This document shows positions 29,223 through 42,805 of a stretch of DNA of 64,000 nucleotides, piece by piece. A program made the position numbers and the translations under genes. The DNA is from Litchfieldella anticariensis FP35 = DSM 16096 (GTDB taxonomy: Bacteria > Pseudomonadota > Gammaproteobacteria > Pseudomonadales > Halomonadaceae). Every line of letters starts with the position of its first letter. The first letter of the stretch is position 1. The notes under the pieces were generated by a model. That model had not been told where the DNA came from and made no database searches. It was given only the letters and a program-made list of their open reading frames with translations. The stretch lies in assembly GCF_000409775.1 (NCBI RefSeq), contig NZ_KE332388.1:1132666-1196665 (forward strand), read 5' to 3'.

Positions 29223-30158
29223 TCAGGGAGCCCAGGATTCGCCAGGTGCATGTGCCAGAAAGGCCGGACGGCGACGCTTGGCGGCATAAGGTTCGCCACA
29301 AGCATTGTCCACACGGTTATAGACGAAGAAGACATTGCTCCGCGGGTCCGGCGACATATTGGCGTTGGAGCCATGAAGCGTATTGCAGTCGAACAGCAGT
29401 AGTCCGCCTGCAGCACCGGTTGGCGCTTCAATGCCACTGCGGCCAATCAATTCGCGCAGCGCCTTGCGGCTGGGAACCCCAAATTCCTGAGTCTTCAACG
29501 ACTGCTTATGATGATCATCCGGCGTCTCACCCAAGCACGGCACGAACACCCGATGTGACCCGGGAATCAGCATCAAGGGGCCATTGTAGTGGTGGTTATC
29601 GGTTAACACGATGGAAGCGCTCACTGCATGCATAGCAGACATGCCATCCTCGGCGTGCCAGGTTTCAAAATCCGAGTGCCAGCTGAAACCCTTGCCTTCA
29701 AAACCAGGCTTGTAATTGATCCGCGACTGATGGATATAAACATCACCGCCCACGATCTGGCGGGCCCGCCCTACCAACCGCTCATCCTTGGCCAGGCGTG
29801 CAAAGCGCTCGGACAGAAAATGCACGGCAAACAGTGAACGGATTTCCTGACTGTCAGGCTCGGTTATGCTGAAGTCCTTGCCAGCGTACTCGTCGCAGTC
29901 GAGCAGGACCTTTAACTCTTCACGCAGCTCAGCCACCTCATCGGGCGAAAGAAAGTCTGGCTCGAACAGGAAACCATTACGCTCGAAATCATCGAGTTGG
30001 CGTTGATCCAACGGGCCTTCACTGACATTGCCTTTGACCACCGCTTCCTGACGGTTGATCCACGGCATATCCAGCGGGCGCACAAGACGAGTAGGGTACG
30101 GATCGCGACTTTGGGTCGCGCGAATGGATGGGTTGTGGGATGCGGTCTGTACTGACAT
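29223..30158 (-). CDS. ectD: Ectoine 5-hydroxylase
   Basis: A 311-residue Fe(II)/2-oxoglutarate dioxygenase that converts ectoine to 5-hydroxyectoine. The EctD signature FSWHSDFETWHAEDGM is present, with iron ligands H161 and D163, and the third ligand H in CNTLHGSNANMSP. The RSNVFFVYNRVDN element is typical of EctD. The gene stands alone, away from any ectABC operon in this window, as is usual in Halomonas. GGAGGTGATT ahead of the ATG at 30158 is a strong site. It indicates a moderately halophilic host. Confidence 0.96.
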   Translation of the reverse strand: MSVQTASHNPSIRATQSRDPYPTRLVRPLDMPWINRQEAVVKGNVSEGPLDQRQLDDFERNGFLFEPDFLSPDEVAELREELKVLLDCDEYAGKDFSITEPDSQEIRSLFAVHFLSERFARLAKDERLVGRARQIVGGDVYIHQSRINYKPGFEGKGFSWHSDFETWHAEDGMSAMHAVSASIVLTDNHHYNGPLMLIPGSHRVFVPCLGETPDDHHKQSLKTQEFGVPSRKALRELIGRSGIEAPTGAAGGLLLFDCNTLHGSNANMSPDPRSNVFFVYNRVDNACGEPYAAKRRRPAFLAHAPGESWAP

Positions 30159-30245
30159 CCAAATCACCTCCGAAACGTTTGTGATCGGGTTCAGATCCAG
30201 TCCGGCTGTTGCCGATAATTCAGTGATCTAAAAGAACAAGGCCCC

Positions 30246-31759: not shown

Positions 31760-31804
31760 CGCCTTATTCGGCTCGGCCTCGGTGGAAGGTAGTTCACCGC
31801 AAAC

Positions 31805-31828
31805 AAAAAAGCCGCCACAATGGGCGAC
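31805..31828 (-). terminator. Duplicated tRNA terminator
   Basis: A copy of the terminator that follows the intact tRNA-Thr: GTCGCC, six-base loop, GGCGGC and a T6 run on the minus strand. Confidence 0.7.
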
Positions 31829-31867
31829 TCTCTTCATTACAAGTGCTTGATTTTTCGGACTTGCCTA

Positions 31868-31920
31868 TGGTGCCGGCACCAGGAGTCGAACCCGGGACCT
31901 ACTGATTACAAGTCAGTTGC
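31868..31920 (-). pseudogene. Truncated tRNA-Thr (3' part only)
   Basis: The 53 bases correspond to the anticodon arm, variable loop, T arm, acceptor 3' strand and CCA of tRNA-Thr(TGT). The 5' strand of the acceptor and the D arm are missing, so no functional tRNA can form. A 3' tRNA fragment of this kind is the usual trace left when an element integrates into a tRNA gene. Confidence 0.9.
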
Positions 31921-32156
31921 GGGGTTTTTTCCAGTGCCGAATAGCATGCAGACATCCATCCGCTATAAAAATCTTCTCTTCGACCAAGCATGCAGGGTGT
32001 AGTGTAGAAAAAACCACATAAGCTAGGCGATCTCAATGCCAAAGTGCAACACCTGACTATTTCGGTAATGTGTTTCACTCATCTTCTTCGTCCTAGAAAT
32101 TTCCATATATTCTTGACGCTTAGATATCAAGCATTAAGCAAGGATACCCTGCTTCT
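31921..32156. other. Non-coding left end of the island
   Basis: AT-rich sequence between the truncated tRNA and the acetyltransferase stop. No coding frame or convincing terminator is seen; CTTGA...TCAAG (about 32114-32133) could form a weak hairpin after the last gene of the cluster. Confidence 0.5.
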
Positions 32157-32597
32157 TTAACGCTGATATTTTATAAATGGAGTCAAATTCGCGATCCGGT
32201 CATATAGCTTGCGTGCAGTTTCATTGAAATCTTGAGTCATCCAGTAAACCGATGGAGTCCCATTAGCATCAGCAGCCTCGTACACCGCCTCAATCAGGGC
32301 ACGCCCCACTCCGCCACCACGGAGTTTCTGATCGACATAGAGATCTTGCAGATAACAAACATCCTCAACACGCCAATTATGGGCGTGATAGATGAAATGC
32401 ACTAGACCAACAAGTTGGCCGTCTTTCTCCGCAACTAGCGCATTTCGATGGTGTTGCTCTGAATCAATAATCTTGTTGAAAGTCGACTCATAAACACTCT
32501 CGGAGACAGAACTTTCGTAGAAGCTTAGATAGTTAGTCCAAAGGCGTCTCCACTCAGCTTTATCATTCTCTTTCAAAGGTCGAATATTAAGAGACAT
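32157..32597 (-). CDS. GNAT family N-acetyltransferase of the island cluster
   Basis: A 146-residue single-domain GNAT enzyme. It starts MSLNIRPLKENDKAEW and has the acetyl-CoA motif LRGGGVGRALIEAV (about 102-115), with the preceding strand CYLQDLYVDQK. AGGAAA lies ahead of the ATG at 32597; the longer reading from 32612 is less likely. It is the last gene of the cluster, 134 bp after the second cupin. It may acetylate a product or intermediate amine or hydrazine, or give self-resistance. That is inferred only from location. Confidence 0.8.
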   Translation of the reverse strand: MSLNIRPLKENDKAEWRRLWTNYLSFYESSVSESVYESTFNKIIDSEQHHRNALVAEKDGQLVGLVHFIYHAHNWRVEDVCYLQDLYVDQKLRGGGVGRALIEAVYEAADANGTPSVYWMTQDFNETARKLYDRIANLTPFIKYQR

Positions 32598-32731
32598 TTT
32601 TCGTTTCCTCATACGTCAGCTGGGAGAGTTCGATGAAGGATAGACCGTCTGGACATTATAGCTTTCCTAGCGACGATCCTTGGTCTTCATATAAAGTTGG
32701 CGACACTATTGAGACCTTACACGGGCGACAG

Positions 32732-33067
32732 TCACTTACAGCCACCTTCGGGGCCGAAGAATATAACCCAGGTGCGAAAGTCATCACTAAAATCAAAGAA
32801 GCGATGCACCATGCCAGCAGGTACAAATAAAGCATCTCCTGCGCGGACTGACACGACCTGATCACCGCGCAAGAATTGTGACTGGCCACTGCTGATTACA
32901 TAGACCTCATCTTGTGTATGAGGTGTCTGGGTATCCGTTCCACGAGGTGCGAACAGTTCCATGGAAAAGTCGTCACGCTTGAACAGCACATGAAAGAGGT
33001 TGTCTGAGGCTTGTAGGCGTGCAGCTTCATCGGCTTCGTCAAGTTTCAAGAAATCATCAGCAATCAT
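32732..33067 (-). CDS. Small single-domain cupin (second cupin of cluster)
   Basis: A 111-residue cupin. Metal ligands are visible as H50 and E54 in PHTQDEVYVISSG and H88 in PAGMVHRF. The barrel elements (FLRGDQVVSVRAGDALFVPAG) are complete. It begins 17 bp after the stop of the FAD oxidase and is clearly co-transcribed. It differs from the first cupin of the cluster, which has an HxH pair. Possible roles are isomerase, hydrolase or dioxygenase on a pathway intermediate. No specific function can be read. Confidence 0.8.
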   Translation of the reverse strand: MIADDFLKLDEADEAARLQASDNLFHVLFKRDDFSMELFAPRGTDTQTPHTQDEVYVISSGQSQFLRGDQVVSVRAGDALFVPAGMVHRFFDFSDDFRTWVIFFGPEGGCK

Positions 33068-33084
33068 GCTTTTTTATCCTTCAA

Positions 33085-34098
33085 TCAAGAGGTAGAAATA
33101 GCCTGCATCAGGCCTTGTGTAAGCACTTGTCGAGAAAGGCTCTGAGCGCACTTGACGGCTCCACCGTTGCACCCGTAGAAACGCAAGTGACTCTGGTCTA
33201 CCTGTACCTTCGGGCGTCCGTCATAGGTTTTAGTGAATGCACAGGGAGCCAGGCGTAGGTCCTGGATCTCAAACCCCATCCTGCGGATCTCGTCCAGAGC
33301 CCAGGGCAGCTTAGGGTGATGGCGGTAACCATCCTGGAACCAGGCCTGCAGAGTCTCACTACTGTTTAAGAGGTGCGGCTGTGCGTCAGCCAGCACGAAC
33401 TTACTGGTTTGAGTCGATGAGTCTTCGTCCAAATGCGAGCATGCGAAGAACTCTCCAACCTGCGGATCCAACAATACAGTCCGGATGAAACAGTGCGGCT
33501 CGTGAAATGGGGGGTGCCGAATCAACAAGGTGGTGCGTGCAACGGTCGTACCTTGGCCGATGGGTTTGGCATAGAGTCCCCGGAAATCGGCGATGGCTTT
33601 GCACCTTGCGACATTGCCATCGACGGTATGAACCTGATGGCTGCAGGTTAGTGTATGAATCGATGTCACCACTGTACTGCGTATTATGGCTCCCTGTTCT
33701 CTGGCTGCTTTGTTCAGTGCACGAATGTAGGCAAGAGGATCAATGATCCCTCCACAGGGATCCTGGTGGTTTAATCCATTGCGCGTAAGGTAGGGTTGGT
33801 CAGATAGAGGCACATTTCCTATACCATCGTAGTACACTGGCGTGGAACGGAAAAAGCGGATGCCAGTACGCTGTTCGAGTTCGAGCATCATCGGCAGGTT
33901 GGCCTCGGCCAACGCTGTCCAATAGGGATCCGGATGCCGTGTCCGGTAGATGCGCGAATGATCGTTATGGCTAGAAACGCGCTCGTCATGCCGGGCGCCA
34001 ATTAGGCAAACGCTAGCGCCTTCTCGTGCTAGTTGCCAGGCGGCCGCCGCGCCAAGAGGGCCATTACCCAGTACGCAGAAATCAAAGAGTGATGGCAC
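33085..34098 (-). CDS. DAO-family FAD-dependent amine oxidase
   Basis: A flavoenzyme of 337 residues from a GTG start at 34098, preceded by GGAGG with five-base spacing; in-frame ATGs at 34110-34131 would also be possible. The N-terminal FAD motif GNGPLGAAAAW (10-20) and the C-terminal DGRPKVQVD...CNGGAVKCA (about 295-325) place it in the glycine/sarcosine oxidase (DAO) family. It overlaps the binding-protein gene by 17 bp. In known hydrazine pathways a DAO-type oxidase cleaves the N-N-linked conjugate, releasing a hydrazino acid and a semialdehyde. I infer the same role here. Confidence 0.85.
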   Translation of the reverse strand: MPSLFDFCVLGNGPLGAAAAWQLAREGASVCLIGARHDERVSSHNDHSRIYRTRHPDPYWTALAEANLPMMLELEQRTGIRFFRSTPVYYDGIGNVPLSDQPYLTRNGLNHQDPCGGIIDPLAYIRALNKAAREQGAIIRSTVVTSIHTLTCSHQVHTVDGNVARCKAIADFRGLYAKPIGQGTTVARTTLLIRHPPFHEPHCFIRTVLLDPQVGEFFACSHLDEDSSTQTSKFVLADAQPHLLNSSETLQAWFQDGYRHHPKLPWALDEIRRMGFEIQDLRLAPCAFTKTYDGRPKVQVDQSHLRFYGCNGGAVKCAQSLSRQVLTQGLMQAISTS

Positions 34099-35149
34099 AG
34101 ACGCCTCCATCAGTCTGTGCATTGCACACATGCGGTGGCACAGTCTTGAGGATCCACTTATGGCCAAGCTGATTGCCTGCTTCATCGAAACTGAGCACAC
34201 CATAGGGCGAGGGTATACGCTGGCCCAGAATGGCATTGCGCAGCAGAGAGGGGAGGGCATTGGGCACTTCCCTCAGCGCTATGCACAGTGCTTGGCAGGC
34301 TAGGTACGACGTCAGGAAATAAGGCCCAGGCGGACGTCCTGCCAAGTCCATGGCCCGTTTCTCCAGTTGAGCGAAATGGGTGTATGTAGGAGACTCCAAG
34401 TCACATTCCAGCGCTGCCACCAACTTACGCGCTGGAAGCTGCAGCTTCACCGCTACACCCATCCGACAATCATCGGAAAAGAGCAGTGTCTGCCCACCAC
34501 TGAGGGGGAGGTCTTCAGCGATCTGTTTGGCAAATTCGCAGGAGCCAGCGACTACGATCAGGTCGCTGTTGACCACCTTTGTTCGGCGTTGGCCACCATC
34601 GGCATTTAGAAATTCGATGGTAGCTGCAGAGGCGTGTGCACTCAAGCGCTGATGCAGGACTTTACCAAGACGTTGCCCGTAATTTCCTCGTTGCGCAAAG
34701 ATGCTGACACGAGCACCGGCTGGAACAGCGGCGAGAAGGCAGTCAGCTTGTTCATCGTCACTGCCAAAGAAACGCACAGCATGCGCACCAGGTCCTGTAC
34801 CCGAGCAGAGTTCCGGATCGGAGCAACCCGGTGCGAGGAATAACATCGGATGGTGATCATAAATGCGCCCTGCGCTCATGGCGGTGGGGGCTGCGAAGTG
34901 GCCGATCACGACCTGGGTCCCATCAATTGCCAAACCCTGGGCAAGGGCAGTGGCCATCTTCGGGTCACGGTGGTCGTCATAGCATGTCAGATCTAGAGAG
35001 ATATCGTGGTCGAGAGTCGCCAAGTAGACCGCCAGCATTAGGTCGATGGCGTTCTCCCCTCGACTTTCGCAAGCGGCCACCTTCAAGCCTCGCCTGTTTC
35101 TCAGCCAATGGGCGTCGTGCAACCATTTCGGGCAACTCAGTTCCTTCAT
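34082..35149 (-). CDS. Signal-less LivJ/AmiC-like periplasmic-binding-protein fold
   Basis: A 355-residue protein with a type 1 periplasmic-binding fold: LMLAVYLATLDH..., VVIGHFAAPTAMSAGRIYDHHPMLFLAPG (the LivJ-type ligand segment), and PGPYFLTSYLACQALCIAL in the second lobe. No signal peptide or lipobox is present at the ATG at 35149 (AGGTGA upstream), so it should be cytosolic. Cytosolic members such as AmiC act as ligand sensors, and a cluster-specific sensor or carrier is possible. No transporter partners are encoded nearby. Translation is coupled with the downstream oxidase. Confidence 0.75.
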   Translation of the reverse strand: MKELSCPKWLHDAHWLRNRRGLKVAACESRGENAIDLMLAVYLATLDHDISLDLTCYDDHRDPKMATALAQGLAIDGTQVVIGHFAAPTAMSAGRIYDHHPMLFLAPGCSDPELCSGTGPGAHAVRFFGSDDEQADCLLAAVPAGARVSIFAQRGNYGQRLGKVLHQRLSAHASAATIEFLNADGGQRRTKVVNSDLIVVAGSCEFAKQIAEDLPLSGGQTLLFSDDCRMGVAVKLQLPARKLVAALECDLESPTYTHFAQLEKRAMDLAGRPPGPYFLTSYLACQALCIALREVPNALPSLLRNAILGQRIPSPYGVLSFDEAGNQLGHKWILKTVPPHVCNAQTDGGVCAITL

Positions 35150-35181
35150 CGCGTCACCTGTCAGCAGTATCGACACCACTG

Positions 35182-35715
35182 TCAAAGCCGGTTCATCTGC
35201 ACGGGCTGGCCCTGTGCATCGAAAGGTTGTCGGAATGTGAAGGCGCGGGGCGTGGAGCCATGGTCATGGAGGCATTCCAGACGCTCACAGGCTTCTCGCC
35301 AGTTGGTCTGGTGGTTGTCCTCTATCCACCAAATCACGTAGATTGGCCAACGCTGATTGAGAAACCAGTCTTTGCGCATTTGCAATGCCTGGCGATGCAA
35401 TGGCCCATGGTAGGCAAAGTTCCACACTGACTTAAGGTCTTGCCAGACTGAGATGGTCTGGGCTTGGGTCGAGTGGCCACTGGCCACTCCGTCGTTATAG
35501 AAACGGGGCACTGCGAAGGGTCCCCAAGATCCCCACTCGCGCTGATGGTTTGTCAGCCACTCCTTATCGTCCTGCTGCTTCGCCCGAGTGATAAAGCCAG
35601 GAGAGTTCTCGGCTTCGGCGAACACGTCTGGGGTACGGTCGTCGAATTCTTGCACCAGGGAATCGCCATAAGGGGCGCGCAATACGGAATAAGTCATCAG
35701 GCATACTTTAGGCAT
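35182..35715 (-). CDS. DUF3291 family protein
   Basis: A 177-residue protein matching DUF3291, a ferredoxin-like dimeric alpha/beta-barrel family: YSVLRAPYGDSLVQEF, AENSPGFITRAKQQD, TISVWQDLKSVWNFAYHGPLHRQALQMRKDWF and the Trp-rich YVIWWIEDNHQTNW. Members are related to ABM-type monooxygenases, but no reaction is assigned. It overlaps the end of the MetRS-like gene by 8 bp, with GAGGTGA as ribosome site, so it is an integral part of the operon. Function in the pathway unknown. Confidence 0.8.
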   Translation of the reverse strand: MPKVCLMTYSVLRAPYGDSLVQEFDDRTPDVFAEAENSPGFITRAKQQDDKEWLTNHQREWGSWGPFAVPRFYNDGVASGHSTQAQTISVWQDLKSVWNFAYHGPLHRQALQMRKDWFLNQRWPIYVIWWIEDNHQTNWREACERLECLHDHGSTPRAFTFRQPFDAQGQPVQMNRL

Positions 35716-37273
35716 GACTCACCTCGCAATTGACCACTTTTAGCCGGAACAGCTCATTGTCGAGCAACTGCGGACGTCCCTCTCCTACTTGTTTCTCATG
35801 ACCGACTTCAGCACCGCGCAGTGCCTTATGCAGCAGGTTGCAGCTTTTTGGCATTAGCGGATAGCAGCATCGAGCGAAGGTGGTGAGCAGATGCACCACA
35901 TCGGCTAGCTCAGTTTGAGCCTGATCAAGAGCGTGGTTGATCCACTCAAGGAGATGTAGGCAGTCCTCGGCAGCCTGACGCACATGGAAGCGTTCCTCCG
36001 ACATGCTGCGTAAAATAGTACGTTCAGCACTGGCCGCGAGCTGCCGGGTGCTGTCGTCGCAGATGTCAAAGCGTTGGGCCTGATTTACACCATCCAGGGC
36101 TGCGTTGAATTTTTCAGCGACTCGATGCCACAACTGATGGAGTGATTTGTCAAGAACGGCGACCATGGCCTGTTCGTTGTAGTTCGACTTCTCGAAACCG
36201 GGGCAATTGAGCGCTGCATAGAAGCGAAGTTCATCTGAACTGTAGCGTTCTACACTGTCGTCCGCCCAGATCACATGACCTCCACTGGTGGAGAACTTGG
36301 CGTGATCCAGGTTATAGAACTCGTTGATCATCGTAAATTTGGGCAGCCACTTGCCGTTGTCAATCTGACTAAGCAAAGCGACGTGGAGGATGGCATAGAA
36401 ATACGAGTTGTCGAAGCCGAAAAAGTTGATGTAAGAAGTGGGGACATTGCTTGGTTGCAAACGTTCTGCCCGTTGGTATGAGTGGATCAATTGAGCCATG
36501 ATTTCAGGCCAAGGGTTGAACATTTGTCCCTCAAACTGAGGGAGGCCAACCGGAATTCCCCATGACGACGGAACGCTGACAGGAAAATCCGGTAGCGGTC
36601 CCTTCAGCGCATCGTCAACAAGCCACAGATACCTCTGCCGGAAGTGTTTAGCCTGATCGTAGAACCGGACGATGTGACTTCTGAAACGCTCGAGTTCCAC
36701 CACCATCACTTCCACCCATTCAACCTCCAGGTCCTGGGAGCCACTGTTGGTATTACGAGGATCGAGCAGGTTCAGAGCACTGGTCAGGTTGCCACAGGCC
36801 TCGCAAATACCGCATTTACAGGCTGCCAAACAGTATGGACAGTAGCCAGAAACACTTGCCTCATCGAGAAGTTTTCCAGTGCTGCGGTCACGAAAGAAAG
36901 GGTATGGCTTCTCAACTAGCACTTTCTCCTCGTAAAGGCGTAGGAACAATTTGCGAACGAAGCCATTAGCTTCTTCATCCGGCGCGTAGTAGTCGTTCAC
37001 CGAGATGTCCAGGCGCTCCAGCGTTCGGCCAATCCTGTCAGTCCACTGCGCGGCCAAAACATGCGGTCCAACGCCCTGTCGCTCGGCTGTCACCCGTACA
37101 TAGGATTGGTTGACGTCGCTGTAGCAAGTAACAAAACTTTCCTCACCCTGCAGCCAAGCCGCCTTGGCAAGAATGTCCCCGGCCAGAAATGGCCCGCTTA
37201 GATGGCCTAGATGCAGGCCACCATTAGGCGTAGGGGGAGGCAGGGTAATGACGTATCGAGTTATTGCAGGCAT
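35708..37273 (-). CDS. Methionyl-tRNA-synthetase-like protein (hydrazine synthetase MetRS module)
   Basis: A 521-residue class I synthetase homologue. HLGH (21-24) is the HIGH motif. A zinc knuckle follows (Cys at 145, 148, 152, 154, 157 and 160). FFGFDNSYFYAILHVALL (284-301) is the MetRS helix, but the KMSKS loop is altered to KFSTSGG (326-332). It lacks a convincing anticodon-recognition extension. It directly follows a cupin gene and an N-hydroxylase. In known hydrazine synthetases (Spb40, PyrN, Tri28 type) a cupin and a MetRS-like domain are fused, and the MetRS part activates an amino acid without tRNA. It is thus unlikely to be the housekeeping MetRS. Confidence 0.88.
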   Translation of the reverse strand: MPAITRYVITLPPPTPNGGLHLGHLSGPFLAGDILAKAAWLQGEESFVTCYSDVNQSYVRVTAERQGVGPHVLAAQWTDRIGRTLERLDISVNDYYAPDEEANGFVRKLFLRLYEEKVLVEKPYPFFRDRSTGKLLDEASVSGYCPYCLAACKCGICEACGNLTSALNLLDPRNTNSGSQDLEVEWVEVMVVELERFRSHIVRFYDQAKHFRQRYLWLVDDALKGPLPDFPVSVPSSWGIPVGLPQFEGQMFNPWPEIMAQLIHSYQRAERLQPSNVPTSYINFFGFDNSYFYAILHVALLSQIDNGKWLPKFTMINEFYNLDHAKFSTSGGHVIWADDSVERYSSDELRFYAALNCPGFEKSNYNEQAMVAVLDKSLHQLWHRVAEKFNAALDGVNQAQRFDICDDSTRQLAASAERTILRSMSEERFHVRQAAEDCLHLLEWINHALDQAQTELADVVHLLTTFARCCYPLMPKSCNLLHKALRGAEVGHEKQVGEGRPQLLDNELFRLKVVNCEVSHA

Positions 37274-37313
37274 GTCCGTATACCTTCAGTCCTTAGTTTG
37301 TTTGATGCGTGCG

Positions 37314-37733
37314 TCATAGTACGCTGTCCGACTGTCCACCCCAGTCCCAGTAAATGTCGATCATCACGAAAGGCTCACTGGCTCGGTTACGCAGCTGGTG
37401 TTGAAAGTGACGAGGAAGGTAAACCACATCACCGAAACCGATAGTGGTAGTCTGAGACTCGATGGATAACTCGGCCTGCCCAGCAATGACGATGAAAGTT
37501 TCTTCTTCGTCATGGGCATGCCGATCTACATCAGTACCGGGATCTACCTGCACCCAGATACAGCCAAACTCTGTCAGAGAACGCTTGGTATTGACCTTGT
37601 CTGCCCAAGGAAACAATCGGTGTAGCTTGCAGTTGTATTCATCGGTAAAGGATATATCCGCATGACGTCGGATATAAGACTCAATGGGGAGTTCCTTGGC
37701 TACAGGGGTAGTGTCCATTTGGGTAGTATCCAT
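37314..37733 (-). CDS. Cupin (hydrazine synthetase cupin module)
   Basis: A 139-residue metal-binding cupin. Motif 1 DRHAHDEEETFIVIAG supplies H72, H74 and E78; motif 2 GDVVYLPRHFQHQL supplies H109 or H112. The ATG at 37733 overlaps the N-hydroxylase stop (TAATG), and a second ATG lies at 37715. The MetRS-like gene begins 40 bp further on. In fused hydrazine synthetases the cupin domain binds zinc and forms the N-N bond by rearranging an O-acyl hydroxylamine. Here it is a free-standing protein. Confidence 0.88.
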   Translation of the reverse strand: MDTTQMDTTPVAKELPIESYIRRHADISFTDEYNCKLHRLFPWADKVNTKRSLTEFGCIWVQVDPGTDVDRHAHDEEETFIVIAGQAELSIESQTTTIGFGDVVYLPRHFQHQLRNRASEPFVMIDIYWDWGGQSDSVL

Positions 37734-39058
37734 TAGAGTACGGTTGCTTCTTGGTAGGAGTGAGGACGGTCGCACAGGGCTTCCTGTGTCGTTAACGCTT
37801 CGATTTTTTCAGCTATCATCCAAGAGCGTAATGACAGCAGGCTAAAGGAGCCGGCGTCACCAAAGCCATGGGTCGACTCGCACAGACCATTTAGGAATAT
37901 CGAAGGGAAATCCGGGTCATCTGAGGCAATCAGATAGTCGCGCTCGACCTTCACTGAGCCATCGCTGCGCCGGCTTACATCGCCAGCCAAGTTTTCCAGT
38001 AGGGCCGGGAGGAACTCATCGTTGGATGCGACGCCAAGGTTGCGAAAGCCCGTCGCCAGGACTACAGCATCAACCATCATCGTAGTATCGCGACCTTTGA
38101 GGCTGTTATGCAGGTCAAGCCTAACTTGGTTGCCTTCCAATTCGGCGCACGTTATGTCGCTCATATTATGCAGGTGAATCCGCTCTCGGCCGTCGAGCTT
38201 TTGTACGTAGAGCTTGTGATACAGTGACTTGATCACGTCCATATCAGCGGAGCTGTAGTTGCTGCGCAATATCTCGTGCGTCAGTTTCTTCTGCAGCTCG
38301 ATCGGAGCGTTGTAGAAGTCATCGACGAACTCTGGGAAGTAAACGTTCTCGGTGAACGGGCTCGTGTCCTTAAGCTGGTAGGAGAAGCTACGGAAGATGT
38401 TGTGGATTTGGGCATCGGGATAACGAGCACTCAGGTCCAAGGTGAGTTCTACTGCGCTTTGGCTACTACCAATCACTGCAATCGAACTCAACGAGCCTTC
38501 ATTGCACCAGCGAGCATTAGCGGTAAGGTATCCGGTAAAGTGACTGACTCGCCCGGAGAAATCTTTGCGGAATACTTCAGGCACGAAGGGTGTACGACCA
38601 GGACCAAATGACAAGGTACGGGTCAGGAGGATGCGACCGAGACTAGTTTCGACACGCACCAGCTCTCCCGAGTCGCCGGCTCGCGAAATGGCTGTGACCC
38701 GTTCACCATAGCTGACCCAACGGTCGAACTGTCTGGCAACCCAGCGTATATAGCGCGCGTATTCCAGGCGGTACGGAAACTCTAAACCTAGGTTGAGGTA
38801 GTCGAACAGACGATCCTTAGATTTGAGATAGCTGAGGAAACCATAGGGGCTGACGGGGTTTCTCGGAGTGACGAAGTCACGCAATGGGTTGTGCTGGGTG
38901 TCGGAGCCATCGATCAGCATTTCTGCTTGCCAGTCAGGTGCAGTGCTGCCTTCGAGGAACAGGTATTGGCCTCCTAAGGCCTTTTCTTCTATCGCTACAG
39001 CTAGTGCTATGTTTGCTGGCCCAAAGCCAACGCCGATGACATCATAGATTTTGGTCAT
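37733..39058 (-). CDS. L-lysine/L-ornithine N-monooxygenase family protein
   Basis: A 441-residue FAD- and NADPH-dependent N-hydroxylase of the K_oxygenase family. FAD site GVGFGPANIALA (9-20), substrate and FAD segment NPLRDFVTPRNP (about 57-68), NADPH site IGSSQSAVE (196-204) and LATGFR near 345 are all present. It hydroxylates the side-chain amine of lysine or ornithine. AGGGAGCAGCAAC precedes the ATG at 39058. No siderophore NRPS or NIS synthetase is nearby, whereas the next genes are hydrazine-synthetase modules, so the product probably feeds N-N bond formation. Lys versus Orn is undecided. Confidence 0.92.
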   Translation of the reverse strand: MTKIYDVIGVGFGPANIALAVAIEEKALGGQYLFLEGSTAPDWQAEMLIDGSDTQHNPLRDFVTPRNPVSPYGFLSYLKSKDRLFDYLNLGLEFPYRLEYARYIRWVARQFDRWVSYGERVTAISRAGDSGELVRVETSLGRILLTRTLSFGPGRTPFVPEVFRKDFSGRVSHFTGYLTANARWCNEGSLSSIAVIGSSQSAVELTLDLSARYPDAQIHNIFRSFSYQLKDTSPFTENVYFPEFVDDFYNAPIELQKKLTHEILRSNYSSADMDVIKSLYHKLYVQKLDGRERIHLHNMSDITCAELEGNQVRLDLHNSLKGRDTTMMVDAVVLATGFRNLGVASNDEFLPALLENLAGDVSRRSDGSVKVERDYLIASDDPDFPSIFLNGLCESTHGFGDAGSFSLLSLRSWMIAEKIEALTTQEALCDRPHSYQEATVL

Positions 39059-39437
39059 GTTGCTGCTCCCTTTAGTGCGACAAAGCATGGTCTGCTTTGG
39101 TTGCGGTCCTTGCTCTCATATATGCCCTTCGAGACGATGGTCAGTGCAAACTAGCAATCCCCTCTGGCTCGAAGAACCGTAAGTCGTGATAAACAGTTGT
39201 TTGGCTAAGGTGTAATCGTCAAAGGATAATGCCCAGCATCAGGCTACAGCCGCACAATTAATCAATTCACAACTAGATCATGTTCAAATTGTTCTGCCTG
39301 AGGTTGAGAGTTCCGACACCTGGGAAGACATCGATGTCGGAATGACAGAAGCCACTGGCTAATTGCAAAATGTAGGTAATGTGCGAAAAATCCACTGATA
39401 GCCGATTCAAGTTGTTCGATTACTCTCAAGTAGCGTA
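39059..39437. promoter_or_regulatory. Internal intergenic region with palindromes
   Basis: The only large gap inside the cluster, and probably the promoter of the N-hydroxylase operon. It contains TTCCGACA (39311-39318) matched by TGTCGGAA (39335-39342), and nested in it the perfect 12-bp palindrome GACATCGATGTC (39327-39338). These could be an operator or the terminator-like end of the upstream EamA transcript. No coding frame is supported. Confidence 0.45.
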
Positions 39438-40340
39438 TTACTGTCTTCGAAGTGCTTTTTGTTCTACTTTCAAACCAATGAGGGCGAAGAAAAGCACAAC
39501 CAAGATGGCAATGATTGAATATCCAGAGAGACTCAGACGGTTATCGAACAACTGGAAGACAAATACGAGAATCGGGGTTAATAGCAAAACATATGAAACT
39601 TCTGCCGGATCAGCCAAGCTAATACCTTTCTGCAGACAATAAAGCGGTACTACATTGCCCAACAATGCGATAGCAAGGAAGGCCCAACCATTTTGCCCCA
39701 AGGATTCACCCAGACCTTGTCCGTAGAAGGCAAATACAATGATGAGCAGGAAGAAGCGCATAGACATCAGTTGGTGCAACTGGTAGCCCTGGTCATAGAT
39801 CCTCTTGGAAATCACATTCACCGAGGCCATGGCACAGCCAGTCAACACCGCAAATAGCAAGCCATACAGGCTGGCTTTACTGTCCTGCTGGCCCATACCT
39901 GAGTTACCTTGGAGCACTGTATGTGCCACCAGCCACATACTGACGATAGTGGCGACACCCACAAGTACGCGCCCTACCGTAAGCCCACGCAAGCTACCGG
40001 CCAGGATCAAGGTAAGAACCAGTGTCGCGAGCGGGTTCACGCCATACAATACCGCTGCAGTCATGGCCGGCTCCACGAATCGCAATGATTCGTAGAGAAA
40101 CAGCCAAGTAGCCAGTGTGCCCACATTCAGGCCGATGAACAGCATTAGGCGACGAGCTTCCCAAGCTGGCCAAGGGTCGCGATGATATGCTGTGACAAGC
40201 ATGAAGAACAGCGCCACAACCGAAAAGATCACCAGCAGCGAATGTTGCACGGACACCCCCTGTAGTAGGCTACCAAGCCACACTGACTGGGCAGCCGAGA
40301 GCATGTCGAAGGCTATGACAAAGATCAATCCGTTGTTCAT
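39438..40340 (-). CDS. EamA/DMT family transporter of the island cluster
   Basis: A 300-residue inner-membrane protein with about ten helices in two EamA halves: LATWLFLYESLRFVEPAMTAAVLYGVNPLATLVLTL and, in the second half, LLGNVVPLYCLQKGISLADPAEVSYVLLLTPILVFVFQL. The start at 40340 overlaps the ATP-grasp stop (ATGA) with GGAG upstream, so the two are coupled. EamA carriers usually export amino acids and metabolites. Export of the cluster product is the simplest reading. Confidence 0.85.
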   Translation of the reverse strand: MNNGLIFVIAFDMLSAAQSVWLGSLLQGVSVQHSLLVIFSVVALFFMLVTAYHRDPWPAWEARRLMLFIGLNVGTLATWLFLYESLRFVEPAMTAAVLYGVNPLATLVLTLILAGSLRGLTVGRVLVGVATIVSMWLVAHTVLQGNSGMGQQDSKASLYGLLFAVLTGCAMASVNVISKRIYDQGYQLHQLMSMRFFLLIIVFAFYGQGLGESLGQNGWAFLAIALLGNVVPLYCLQKGISLADPAEVSYVLLLTPILVFVFQLFDNRLSLSGYSIIAILVVLFFALIGLKVEQKALRRQ

Positions 40341-41581
40341 GCGACGCTCCACAGCTTACCTTCGGATTCCATCTTACGGATAAGCCGGGTATCCGATTCC
40401 AGTGCTGCGAGGCTCTCATGGGCTAAGAATACCCCCCCAGGGCTGTCGAACAGATTTCGTGTCGGTTCGATGTGGTCACCCACTGCGATATTCCAGAACG
40501 CAGTTGTGTAGCTCGCCAGACTATTGACCCAATCCTTACCCGGCAAAGCAATGATCTCACCACGCTGGCTATTAATTAACGACACTGCTCGGGAATGCTT
40601 ATGGTAGATCGGCGGTTGAGAAGTACGTAGTGCAAATCGACCTGGGTCGATAGCGGCATCCACCAACAAGTCAATCTGTGAGATATTGGAAAAGTACTGA
40701 GCGTTGCGCGGTGCTTTAGCCCCATGCAGCCGCGCTCCTAGCTCTATTAACACTGGCCCATGTTCGTCGAGCATGATTTCTATGTGCGCGGCACCGAAGT
40801 CGACGCCTAGGCTAGTAAGTGCTTTGAGCGCATAATCGACCAGCGGCTGAACTTCTGGATCATCGGGGTGGATGAAATTTTCCTGCACATAGACAATTGA
40901 GCCATGGAGTGGCGCTTTGTCGTAGCGGGAGGTATTGGTCACATAGTGCTGCCCATTAAGCGAGACAGTGTCGATCACGTACTCGCTGCCGCTCATATAT
41001 TTCTGTACTAATACGCTTTTATTAGCGTTTCCGATGCAGTCACGGCTGTCAAGTATATGCTCGACGGCATTCTTCACTTGATCAGCGTTCTCGCAAAAAT
41101 TTACGCCATCTGTGCCACAAGAACTGAGCGGTTTAACCACAGTGCGAGCGGCGTCTAGTTCAGGCAAACGTGCCAGCACTTCGCTCACCGAAGAGGCTTG
41201 GAACTGGGGGATAGAGCGTAAGCCATCTAGGGAGATCTGTTCCTGCATCAGGAACTTGTCCCTGAGTGTATCGAGCTTATCAGCTGCACATGAGGGTAAA
41301 CCGAGTGTATGCGCTAACCGGTTGGCTAGGATCACACCACTTTCGGCACCTGCAACTACCGCAGCACAGCCTTGTGCTCGAAGCATGTAGAGCAGGGTCT
41401 CGAAGTTGTCCCCAGTATAGAAGAAGGAATGTTCAAAATTATCAGGATAAAATGAACTAGAAAAAACTTCAGGAATGGGGGAGCAGCTATGTATAGCCCA
41501 GCAGCTGTAACCTCTACTTGCAAATTCCGCTGCCAAAAATTGACCACTAGAATAAGGGTCGACGATAGCAACATGGTCCAT
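40337..41581 (-). CDS. ATP-grasp ligase of the island cluster
   Basis: A 414-residue ATP-grasp enzyme. The N-terminal Rossmann-like part (MDHVAIVDPYSSGQFLAAEF) is followed by the ATP-binding lobes, with TVVKPLSSCGTDGVNFC near 165-180 and the catalytic region PVLIELGARLHGAKAPRN near 300. It resembles BacD-type L-amino-acid ligases and carboxylate-amine ligases, which join an amino acid to a second amine. GGGAGG lies ahead of the ATG at 41581. It is the first gene of the cluster and probably ligates the hydrazine-containing acid into a dipeptide. Confidence 0.85.
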   Translation of the reverse strand: MDHVAIVDPYSSGQFLAAEFASRGYSCWAIHSCSPIPEVFSSSFYPDNFEHSFFYTGDNFETLLYMLRAQGCAAVVAGAESGVILANRLAHTLGLPSCAADKLDTLRDKFLMQEQISLDGLRSIPQFQASSVSEVLARLPELDAARTVVKPLSSCGTDGVNFCENADQVKNAVEHILDSRDCIGNANKSVLVQKYMSGSEYVIDTVSLNGQHYVTNTSRYDKAPLHGSIVYVQENFIHPDDPEVQPLVDYALKALTSLGVDFGAAHIEIMLDEHGPVLIELGARLHGAKAPRNAQYFSNISQIDLLVDAAIDPGRFALRTSQPPIYHKHSRAVSLINSQRGEIIALPGKDWVNSLASYTTAFWNIAVGDHIEPTRNLFDSPGGVFLAHESLAALESDTRLIRKMESEGKLWSVA

Positions 41582-41854
41582 AAAATGCCTCCCTGGCAAA
41601 ACCACGATATATCTTCATTTTCCATGAAGAAACTTTGATTATCTTTATTATTTCAAACCAGCTTTGATTGACAGAGGTTTATATTATGTCATGCGATTCT
41701 TCTCATGCAAGCATGTCAAAGATATTTTTCCTGAATCAGGCTTGCTTCCCAATCGTTCGATATAATGAAGCTTAAAAAACTAGGTTTCTATATATTTTTG
41801 GCAAAGCCTCTTGCTAGTTTTGCAGGCAATAGAGCAATGGCCGTCCTGCTGGGT
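41582..41854. other. AT-rich region upstream of the cluster
   Basis: Strongly AT-rich, no coding frame. On the minus strand it holds AATAATAAAGATAAT-type sequences about 60-80 bp before the ATP-grasp ATG, a plausible promoter zone. No operator could be defined. Confidence 0.4.
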
Positions 41855-42449
41855 TCATTGAGTGGCAAGCTCGCCTAAGTGGATACGCTGTCCGATGGCG
41901 TCCTGCACGCTGGCCAGTGATAAGTCGATCCAGACACCGGACAGGCGCCCAGACGTGCGATCGAGCATGCGAATTGCTTCGTGTTCAAGGAGCAGTTGCA
42001 CGACCGTGGGTCGCCAGTGATCCAGGAGCGGATACGCGGCAAGATCACGTAGTCGCGACCAGAGCATCATGCTCTTGTCCTGACGTGAGTCGCGCACGTT
42101 GAAGGTGGCGTAGCACTGATCGGTTGGCTCGATCAGGTCCCTGACAGCGCTGATCGAACAGCCAGAGGTGCAGCAGGCTAGCAAACCGCGTTTGCCGATA
42201 GGTACGAGTCGTGCGCTTTGCCAGTCGGTCACGGTCCAGATGCAGCTGAATCGGCTGATCGCCCTGGAGCGCGAGACTACGCCAGCTACCCTCGGCCAGC
42301 GGCAGCGTCAAGTTGGGCATCAGTTCGTGAATCACAGTATCCCAACCCCACTGGGAGAGAAATACCGCGCTGCCGCCGTCGGCGACGTAGCTGTCCAGAA
42401 ATAGCTCTGGCGCCTCGTCGAGACGCCAGAGTCAGGCTTGAGTCGTCAT
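41855..42449 (-). pseudogene. Degenerate coding remnant at right end of island
   Basis: A minus-strand frame opens with a good site (AGGGAGG) and ATG at 42449, but stops after five codons (MTTQA). It then continues open (WRLDEAPELFLDSY...AEGSWRSLALQGDQPIQLHLDRDRL) to about 42235, after which the family-like sequence moves to another frame (DWQSARLVPIGKRG...) down to 41855. One nonsense codon and one frameshift are therefore inferred. I do not recognise the protein. It lies between the cluster and the att repeat, where a mobility or phage gene would be expected. Confidence 0.5.
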
Positions 42450-42570
42450 ACCTGCCTCCCTAACAAGGGGCAAGTTGCCAAACAGCGCGCGAAGCTCGCG
42501 CCCGATGAATAGCACCAGGCGGTGTCAAAGAAAATGCGAGGCTGTGCCAATGCTGGCGCGCGGTTACACT

Positions 42571-42641
42571 CGCTGTCACAAGGACTACGGAGCCAAGATG
42601 GATATGTGCGCGTTAGAGAGGGAATTTCAAGGGCCAGCTTC

Positions 42642-42642
<1 letters not shown>
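42571..42642 (+). repeat. Dispersed repeat, copy 2
   Basis: Direct copy of 30246-30315, adjoining the right attachment repeat. Differences include CGAAGCC/CGGAGCC and one extra base in TTAGAGAGGGAATTT. Confidence 0.75.

Positions 42643-42805
<163 letters not shown>

Follow-up and report, generated by a model that had tools for sequence, protein, structure and literature searches.

The question raised by positions 32157-41581 of a 64,000-nucleotide stretch of the Litchfieldella anticariensis FP35 = DSM 16096 genome (contig NZ_KE332388.1, positions 1,132,666 to 1,196,665; hereafter the window) is which compound would be made by its ten closely packed genes, among them those for a flavin N-hydroxylase (NMO), a cupin and a protein resembling methionyl-tRNA synthetase (MetRS), and from which precursor. 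The answer that we regard as moderately probable is that this operon, carried on a genomic island, encodes a split cupin/MetRS hydrazine synthetase which would turn L-2,4-diaminobutyrate (DABA) from the host into a hydrazino amino acid, for capping by an ATP-grasp ligase and subsequent export. All of the pathway chemistry is inferred from homology, and the analysis covers gene content, boundaries, active-site residues, clades and the recurrence of the gene set. The N-N chemistry is already known, with characterised hydrazine pathways being mostly actinobacterial (PMC11705231); what is new is the variant of the cupin/MetRS hydrazine synthetase pathways, a gene set not described in the open-access literature searched, including passages of PMC11705231, PMC8664883, PMC11350110, PMC7744662 and PMC13274452. 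The ten open reading frames (ORFs) all lie on the minus strand, and the ORF listing and Pfam scan bear out the packed same-strand genes and named domains described in an earlier note made from the sequence alone, with the binding protein falling below the Pfam threshold:

32157-32612, minus strand: GNAT acetyltransferase (PF00583, E 2.2e-16)
32732-33067, minus strand: second cupin, cup2 (Cupin_2 Pfam match)
33085-34110, minus strand: DAO-type FAD oxidase (PF01266, E 7e-14; start 34110 or 34098)
34082-35185, minus strand: type-I amino-acid-binding protein (sub-threshold Peripla_BP_6; leucine-binding proteins matched in the PDB)
35182-35715, minus strand: DUF3291 protein with an ABM-like alpha/beta fold (PF11695, E 6.5e-34)
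35708-37273, minus strand: MetRS-like protein (PF09334, tRNA-synt_1g)
37314-37733, minus strand: cupin, cup1, predicted to be zinc-dependent (Cupin_2; residues numbered from an ORF start at 37775)
37733-39088, minus strand: NMO (PF13434, Lys_Orn_oxgnase, E 2.5e-83)
39438-40352, minus strand: EamA exporter (Pfam EamA; 10 hydrophobic segments)
40337-41581, minus strand: ATP-grasp amino-acid ligase (PRK07206, 350.6 against a cut-off of 302)

The two putative synthetase halves are encoded by separate genes, 35708-37273 and 37314-37733, rather than as a fused cupin-MetRS protein, and the NMO gene adjoins them. Within cup1, residues H86, H88, E92 and H126 are conserved in all 11 aligned rows, and their catalytic spacing of +2/+6/+40 is the same as that of H50/H52/E56/H90 in PyrN and D63/H65/E69/H103 in RHS1 (PMC8664883). 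RHS1 (5uqp) is a weak sequence match to cup1 (E 4.7e-5), the top match being plu4264 (E 1.2e-12). On these grounds cup1 is predicted to be the zinc-dependent, N-N-forming half of the synthetase. The MetRS-like protein retains the HIGH/KMSKS core as HLGH (21) and KFSTS with K326, and on two metG models it scores 184.7 against a cut-off of 553 bits and 144.5 against 336 bits. A separate MetG is encoded by the host on another contig (C1); the MetRS-like protein is 23% identical to it and has a changed amino-acid pocket by comparison, the pocket positions being those of E. coli MetRS. For specificity, PMC11705231 mentions eight residues. In a 44-row tree (from which L059, in two pieces, L028, interrupted, L072 and L075-L080 were left out, and in which flagged long-branch joins make the deep order unsure) it belongs to a clade of 15 proteobacterial rows (100/100) that is distinct from canonical metG (100/100). 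Also within its clade is the Colwellia protein P0068, which may be Col1-Col2 of Table 2 in PMC11705231. Since the MetRS-like proteins of actinobacteria group in a clade of their own, the history of the synthetase half may differ from that of the NMO and DUF3291 proteins. The MetRS-like protein is predicted, from its sequence, to be the amino-acid-activating half of the synthetase.

The precursor is suggested by the company that the NMO keeps in other genomes. A search of genome records for related loci, with flanks of up to 10 kb fetched on each side, returned 27 loci, and a gene for an EctB-type DABA aminotransferase is present in 21 of these and in 21 of the 22 that have an NMO; the sole NMO locus lacking it (L004) has NMOs that fall outside the DABA-linked clade described below. 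Four of the 21 EctB-type proteins were scored, and all four lie above the TIGR02407 cut-off of 552 (scores 571-582); the remaining intact proteins share 44-52% identity with that of the Photorhabdus luminescens locus (L003), the one of L028 matching in two pieces (34% and 50%). As controls, identity to the L003 protein is 22-35% for the aminotransferases of the host other than EctB and 47% for host EctB itself, and TIGR02407 matches occur in all 14 control genomes, none above the cut-off. In a 37-row NMO tree the window and L003 proteins pair (99/96) inside a 25-row clade (100/100) that takes in the two second NMOs of Leisingera; 23 of its rows come from loci with the DABA aminotransferase, and the remaining two are the window and L059. 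Outside this clade lie the siderophore-type NMOs (L068-L071, so called from their neighbour genes, such as FhuB in L069) and those of Pantoea, Klebsiella and Deinococcus. This tree was built without the Apy11, Spb38, Tri26 and Por9 sequences, without loci lacking a full NMO and without the L060 gene (in-frame stops), and N-terminal extensions, where long, were cut back. An EctB-type gene is missing from all six loci whose NMO genes are hydrazine-type but of another sort (L060-L065, L063 being cut by the record end).

Within the host, PF13434 has one match besides this NMO, a marginal one (20.8 bits, or 22.6 with neighbours, against a cut-off of 21.3), and the genes for EctA (226.7 versus 120.6), EctB (644.7 versus 552.2) and ectoine synthase are contiguous on C1. 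An ectoine hydroxylase (29223-30167, minus strand; 370 versus a cut-off of 336.5) lies about 2 kb outside the island. Because the NMO clade is linked to EctB-type genes and the genome has ectABC, the enzyme would take DABA and the host would supply it: the NMO substrate is predicted to be L-2,4-diaminobutyrate, as in actinopyridazinone, and the host ectoine pathway likely furnishes it. In that pathway Apy11 accepts DABA for hydroxylation but neither lysine nor ornithine (PMC11705231). The earlier note had described an N-hydroxylase of the lysine/ornithine type and likened the genes to the machinery for hydrazinoacetate-type units; neither lysine or ornithine as the likely substrate nor such a unit is supported, the NMO clade pointing to DABA. 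Combined, NMO clade and DABA aminotransferase would provide a rule for predicting the substrates of many clusters not yet characterised.

In addition to the NMO, the DUF3291 protein connects the operon with DABA loci: 17 of the 27 loci encode it, among them 16 of the 21 with the DABA gene. The mean identity of the window protein to those of 11 actinobacterial loci is 51%, where the NMO reaches 46%, the cupin 40% and the MetRS-like protein 31%; of the four core proteins common to the window and the actinobacterial DABA loci, DUF3291 is thus the best conserved. It was not found in seven plasmid loci (L059-L065) and is the sole PF11695 match in the host. Its AF2 model (pLDDT 86.9) retrieves folds of the ABM type with Foldseek, the best being RslO4 (E 8e-4) and SnoaB with modest TM-scores, and sequence search retrieves YqjZ only (E 0.054). 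We consider it likely, from this pattern, that DUF3291 is a core enzyme of DABA-type hydrazine pathways, acting beside N-N formation. A family that is mentioned in the open-access literature searched only by a cysteine database paper would thereby gain a concrete candidate pathway.

The remaining genes are suggestive of cleavage, capping, export and protection. A word-based search of 5.8e9 proteins returned six matches to the DAO-type oxidase, namely itself, four at 57-67% identity (including Pseudomonas orientalis and P. tremae) and one weak match, and since the search was word-based, distant kin will have been missed; a profile match to the oxidase of an actinobacterial locus has 95% probability, a kinship at the profile level only. 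The predicted role of the oxidase is to break one of the C-N bonds in the hydrazine. Apy10-type cleavage of the DABA hydrazine yields L-2-amino-4-hydrazinylbutanoate (PMC11705231). The ATP-grasp protein passes the PRK07206 model and misses the equivalog cut-off of dapdiamide synthase DdaF (207 of 840), so a dipeptide-type product is likely, although unproven; its PDB match is an L-amino acid ligase (30vh), and it is predicted to form a dipeptide or amide. ATP-grasp neighbourhoods on two other plasmids contain no hydrazine genes. The binding protein has no signal-like segment and no hydrophobic 17-mer and is predicted to be cytosolic. Its AF2 model (pLDDT 80.2, from six sequences, with the frameshifted L003 protein and three plasmid rows left out) is closest among PDB folds to the Atu2422-GABA (gamma-aminobutyrate) receptor with alanine and then to leucine/isoleucine/valine-binding proteins. 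Relatives occur in L003, L004, L005, L007, L008, L009, L060, L062 and L065, adjoining ATP-grasp or hydrazine genes in Pantoea and Deinococcus. From its fold, its place and the absence of a transporter partner one might guess, as a possibility, that it sequesters a toxic amino-acid product. The GNAT protein, which is 55% identical to a Leisingera protein, 30% to that of Photorhabdus and 41% and 39% to those of two Pantoea plasmids, likely serves self-protection or tailoring. Tailoring is also the likely role of cup2, whose H50, E54 and H88 are invariant in four aligned rows and which occurs in three of the 27 loci (L003, L008, L009).

The earlier note could name no cluster that these added partners match, a statement which no longer holds, since Photorhabdus, Pseudomonas and a parallel set in Pantoea and Deinococcus provide counterparts. 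In L003, nine of the ten window genes are recognisable by sequence, together with a DABA gene, at identities of 56% (ATP-grasp), 50% (EamA), 30% (GNAT), 60% (NMO), 60% (cupin), 55% (MetRS-like), 67% (DUF3291), 31% (binding protein, frameshifted in L003) and 55% (cup2). The tenth position, at the same operon end as the window oxidase, is occupied by an oxidase of the DAO type; tblastn does not align the two. In Pseudomonas the MetRS-like protein has homologues at 76% (P. tremae) and 78% identity, the oxidase at 67% (P. orientalis) and 58% (P. tremae) and the ATP-grasp protein at 74% (P. orientalis) and 71%, and the three P. tremae proteins all trace to a single contig of 5,876,612 bp; these identities show a close relative in Pseudomonas. 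In samples of Pseudomonadaceae (25, 398 and 398 overlapping genomes at E <= 1e-40, 1e-40 and 1e-60) no copy above 36% identity was found. The MetRS-like and ATP-grasp proteins are found together in Photobacterium WH77 and Hahella CR1, on contigs of matching length, and in L003.

Several other loci deserve mention in their own right. Azospirillum soli and a second proteobacterium (L005, L007) mix the actinobacterial set (adenylation (A) domain, FAD monooxygenase) with the window set (binding protein, DUF3291). A conjugative plasmid of Pantoea ananatis (L062:8362-16413) carries eight genes in the order NMO, cupin, MetRS, FAD, major facilitator superfamily (MFS) exporter, ATP-grasp, binding protein and GNAT, and in P. 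agglomerans (L060) the NMO frame contains in-frame stops. Kinship of the Pantoea set with Pantoea Natural Product 3 (8 genes, 8487 bp; PMC11350110) was not established, the antiSMASH region there being of the phosphonate/nonribosomal peptide synthetase (NRPS) type (PMC7744662), and PNP-5 was rejected as a relative, being holomycin-like. An Agrobacterium locus (L006:6851-13033) has a DABA gene, NMO, cupin, MetRS-like protein and, by eye, an HpaB-like hydroxylase, with no DUF3291 found. On a plasmid of Robbsia andropogonis (L084:501-2350) a gene labelled methionine--tRNA ligase lies between NMO and cupin genes and is likely a mislabelled hydrazine synthetase.

Taken together, the homologies suggest a pathway in which the NMO would make N4-hydroxy-DABA; the MetRS-like protein would adenylate a second amino acid, for which the nearest precedents are alanine and glycine, and load it onto the hydroxylamine oxygen; and the zinc cupin would rearrange the resulting ester to an N-N bond. 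The DAO-type oxidase would then cut one C-N bond, with L-2-amino-4-hydrazinylbutanoate as the simplest product, while DUF3291 and the second cupin would act on the cleaved or uncleaved hydrazine. The ATP-grasp enzyme would couple the hydrazino amino acid to another amino acid, EamA would export the product, and the GNAT and the cytosolic amino-acid-binding protein would protect the producer. L-2-amino-4-hydrazinylbutanoate is isosteric with canaline and ornithine (as an aza analogue), and hydrazine amino acids are reactive antimetabolites; the product is predicted to be a small peptide-like antimetabolite. A bolder version, which we put forward tentatively and would rather expect to fail as a whole, is that DUF3291 and the cytosolic amino-acid receptor mark a DABA-hydrazine route to an aza-canaline or aza-ornithine dipeptide in salt-tolerant, plant- or insect-associated proteobacteria, with the island parasitising the host's ectoine precursor, DUF3291 as the missing core enzyme and the binding protein sequestering the toxin until export. 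We know of no case in hydrazine chemistry of self-protection through sequestration by a binding protein.

A number of observations weigh against the proposed DABA pathway. The DABA aminotransferase gene is not among the ten genes of the operon, and L059, a near-copy on a Leisingera plasmid, has an NMO of the clade and no DABA gene within its 8-kb flanks. Three loci with the DABA gene (L006, L021 and L023) have no DUF3291, L018 (contig end) and L028 (masked stretch) being unjudgeable. The pocket and clade of the MetRS-like protein differ from those of the actinobacterial DABA loci, so that alanine cannot be assumed as the second amino acid, and the side of C-N cleavage is left open by an oxidase which is only profile-level kin of other oxidases. 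In P. orientalis, finally, Por11 is reported to couple N4-hydroxy-DABA or N5-hydroxy-ornithine with glycine, and Por9 is tied to an ornithine compound (PMC11705231).

These Por specificities, together with the P. orientalis origin of the closest oxidase and ATP-grasp homologues, also favour a reading in which the same machinery is at work on ornithine (or lysine) with glycine as second amino acid, as in por or s56-p1/triacsin, and a hydrazinoacetate-like unit is released. This reading would gain if por were an orthologous cluster, but the order of the por genes, as guessed from accession numbers that run consecutively (the second being printed for Apy10 in PMC11705231), would be NMO, FAD enzyme, synthetase, like that of L064 and unlike that of the window, and the window NMO sits inside a clade whose loci carry the DABA aminotransferase; we judge it unlikely. 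Another alternative keeps the DABA hydrazine but ends in a cyclic 4-amino-(dihydro/tetrahydro)pyridazinone, DUF3291 closing the ring and the ATP-grasp enzyme acylating it. It is consistent with the sharing of DUF3291, at the frequency and identity given above, with actinobacterial loci that look apy-like, with an ABM-like fold that takes in cyclases and cofactor-free oxygenases, and with general chemistry, by which L-2-amino-4-hydrazinylbutanoate from an Apy10-type cleavage can lactamise. Most of those loci, however, have an FAD monooxygenase and stand-alone A domains that are missing from the window, and their apy likeness is itself judged from gene set and not from sequence, which leaves the cyclic product doubtful.

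Two further readings were rejected on trees and scores. A hydroxamate siderophore cluster of NMO, GNAT acylase and ligase would account for the NMO family and the GNAT, both of which are also siderophore parts, but is very improbable: there is no NRPS-independent (NIS) or NRPS synthetase and no iron transporter among the ten genes, and the MetRS-like protein and zinc-type cupin would have no role. That the MetRS-like gene encodes a MetRS for tRNA charging or a drug-resistant one, with the other genes as mere neighbours, would agree with PF09334 and the retained HIGH/KMSKS core, but is hardly credible beside the host's own MetG, the clade and metG scores that set the protein apart and the recurrence of the neighbourhood across phyla. 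The earlier note had named two groupings, of the MetRS-like protein with tRNA-charging MetRS and of the N-hydroxylase with siderophore enzymes, as evidence that would speak against a hydrazine cluster; neither is seen, the former proteins forming separate clades, each at 100/100, and the NMO lying outside the siderophore-type rows tested.

The earlier note had claimed a cupin/MetRS synthetase operon placed on a genomic island, and both claims are supported, the first by the PyrN-like cupin residues and spacing and by the separation of the MetRS-like protein from tRNA-charging MetRS. The boundaries of the island are as follows:

31776-31920, no strand assigned: distal direct repeat, attachment-site (att)-like, including 53 bp that duplicate the 3' part of tRNA-Thr
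42637-42782, no strand assigned: proximal direct repeat, att-like, spanning the 3' part of tRNA-Thr
42730-42805, minus strand: intact tRNA-Thr(tgt), the insertion site

The two direct repeats, of about 145 bp, are 93% and 97% identical in two registers and spaced by 10861-10862 bp. The GC content is 0.521 across 31921-42636 and 0.522 in the ten-gene cluster, whereas 128 other 10.7-kb segments of this sequence have 0.585-0.603. In a genome of the same genus (G197), the tRNA-Phe/Gln/Thr array and ectoine hydroxylase are retained with different genes in between. Judged by its direct repeats, its foreign GC content and the other content in the relative, this 10.9-kb insert bounded by tRNA-Thr is a genomic island. 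Because G197 carries different genes there, the tRNA-Thr site looks like an integration hot spot; its genes at that site (L058:10990-15541) are, by eye, a cation efflux-like gene, a glutathione S-transferase-like gene and an Xre/RES-type pair. The MetRS-like protein is found in one of 390 genomes sampled from the order (E <= 1e-60) and DUF3291 in one of 121 genomes of the family (E <= 1e-20), in both cases the window's own. If the DABA supply is as proposed, an island fed by the ectoine route of its host would clearly exemplify mobile secondary metabolism tied to a resident compatible-solute pathway.

Within the operon, neighbouring genes overlap or are separated by at most 40 nt, with the exceptions, on corrected starts, of EamA-NMO (349 nt) and cup2-GNAT (119 nt). 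The oxidase gene probably starts at 34110 or 34098 rather than at 34260, and with either start it overlaps the binding-protein gene by about 17-29 nt. A promoter scan gave no excess over shuffled sequence (6 versus 8.5), the figures for terminators being 14 and 9.0, and PADLOC assigned no defence family among the four of the ten operon proteins scored. Between the operon and tRNA-Thr, at 41855-42335 on the minus strand, are overlapping frames that match no Pfam family and are possibly a gene remnant. Pfam scans of the ten genes and the two frames at this place showed no recombinase or integrase family.

Among the closest known systems is actinopyridazinone biosynthesis (Apy9-Apy10-Apy11 of Streptomyces sp. 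MSD090630SC-05), with which the window shares the DABA N-hydroxylase, the cupin/MetRS synthetase and the DAO-type cleavage predicted for it; 15 actinobacterial NMO loci (L010-L016, L018-L021, L023, L027-L029), probably apy-like by gene set, have, like the window's relatives, an EctB-type gene and, in 11 of the 15, DUF3291. The window differs from actinopyridazinone in its split synthetase of another MetRS-like clade, an ATP-grasp enzyme of another kind and an amino-acid-binding protein, and from the actinopyridazinone-type loci in having no A domains, no FAD monooxygenase and its DABA gene outside the cluster. The por cluster of P. orientalis DSM 17489 (Por9, Por11) offers a Gram-negative NMO and a synthetase accepting N4-hydroxy-DABA in the species of the closest oxidase and ATP-grasp homologues, but it is reported for N5-hydroxy-ornithine or N4-hydroxy-DABA with glycine, and its gene order seems different. 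The plasmid clusters of Pantoea and Deinococcus (L060, L062, L065) share the NMO-cupin-MetRS-FAD-ATP-grasp-binding protein series and, in the two Pantoea plasmids, the GNAT; in contrast to the window, they have no DABA gene and no DUF3291, their MetRS-like proteins and NMOs (L062, L065) fall in other clades, and in Pantoea an MFS protein replaces EamA. With s56-p1, triacsin and azaserine (of the hydrazinoacetate type), pyrazomycin and formycin the window has in common the chemistry of the N-N step and the cupin residues (PyrN), whereas those pathways are lysine-derived and have fused synthetases and other partners (PMC11705231; PMC8664883). Among ligases, finally, the ATP-grasp enzyme of the window sides with the PRK07206 model rather than with the dapdiamide synthase DdaF equivalog.

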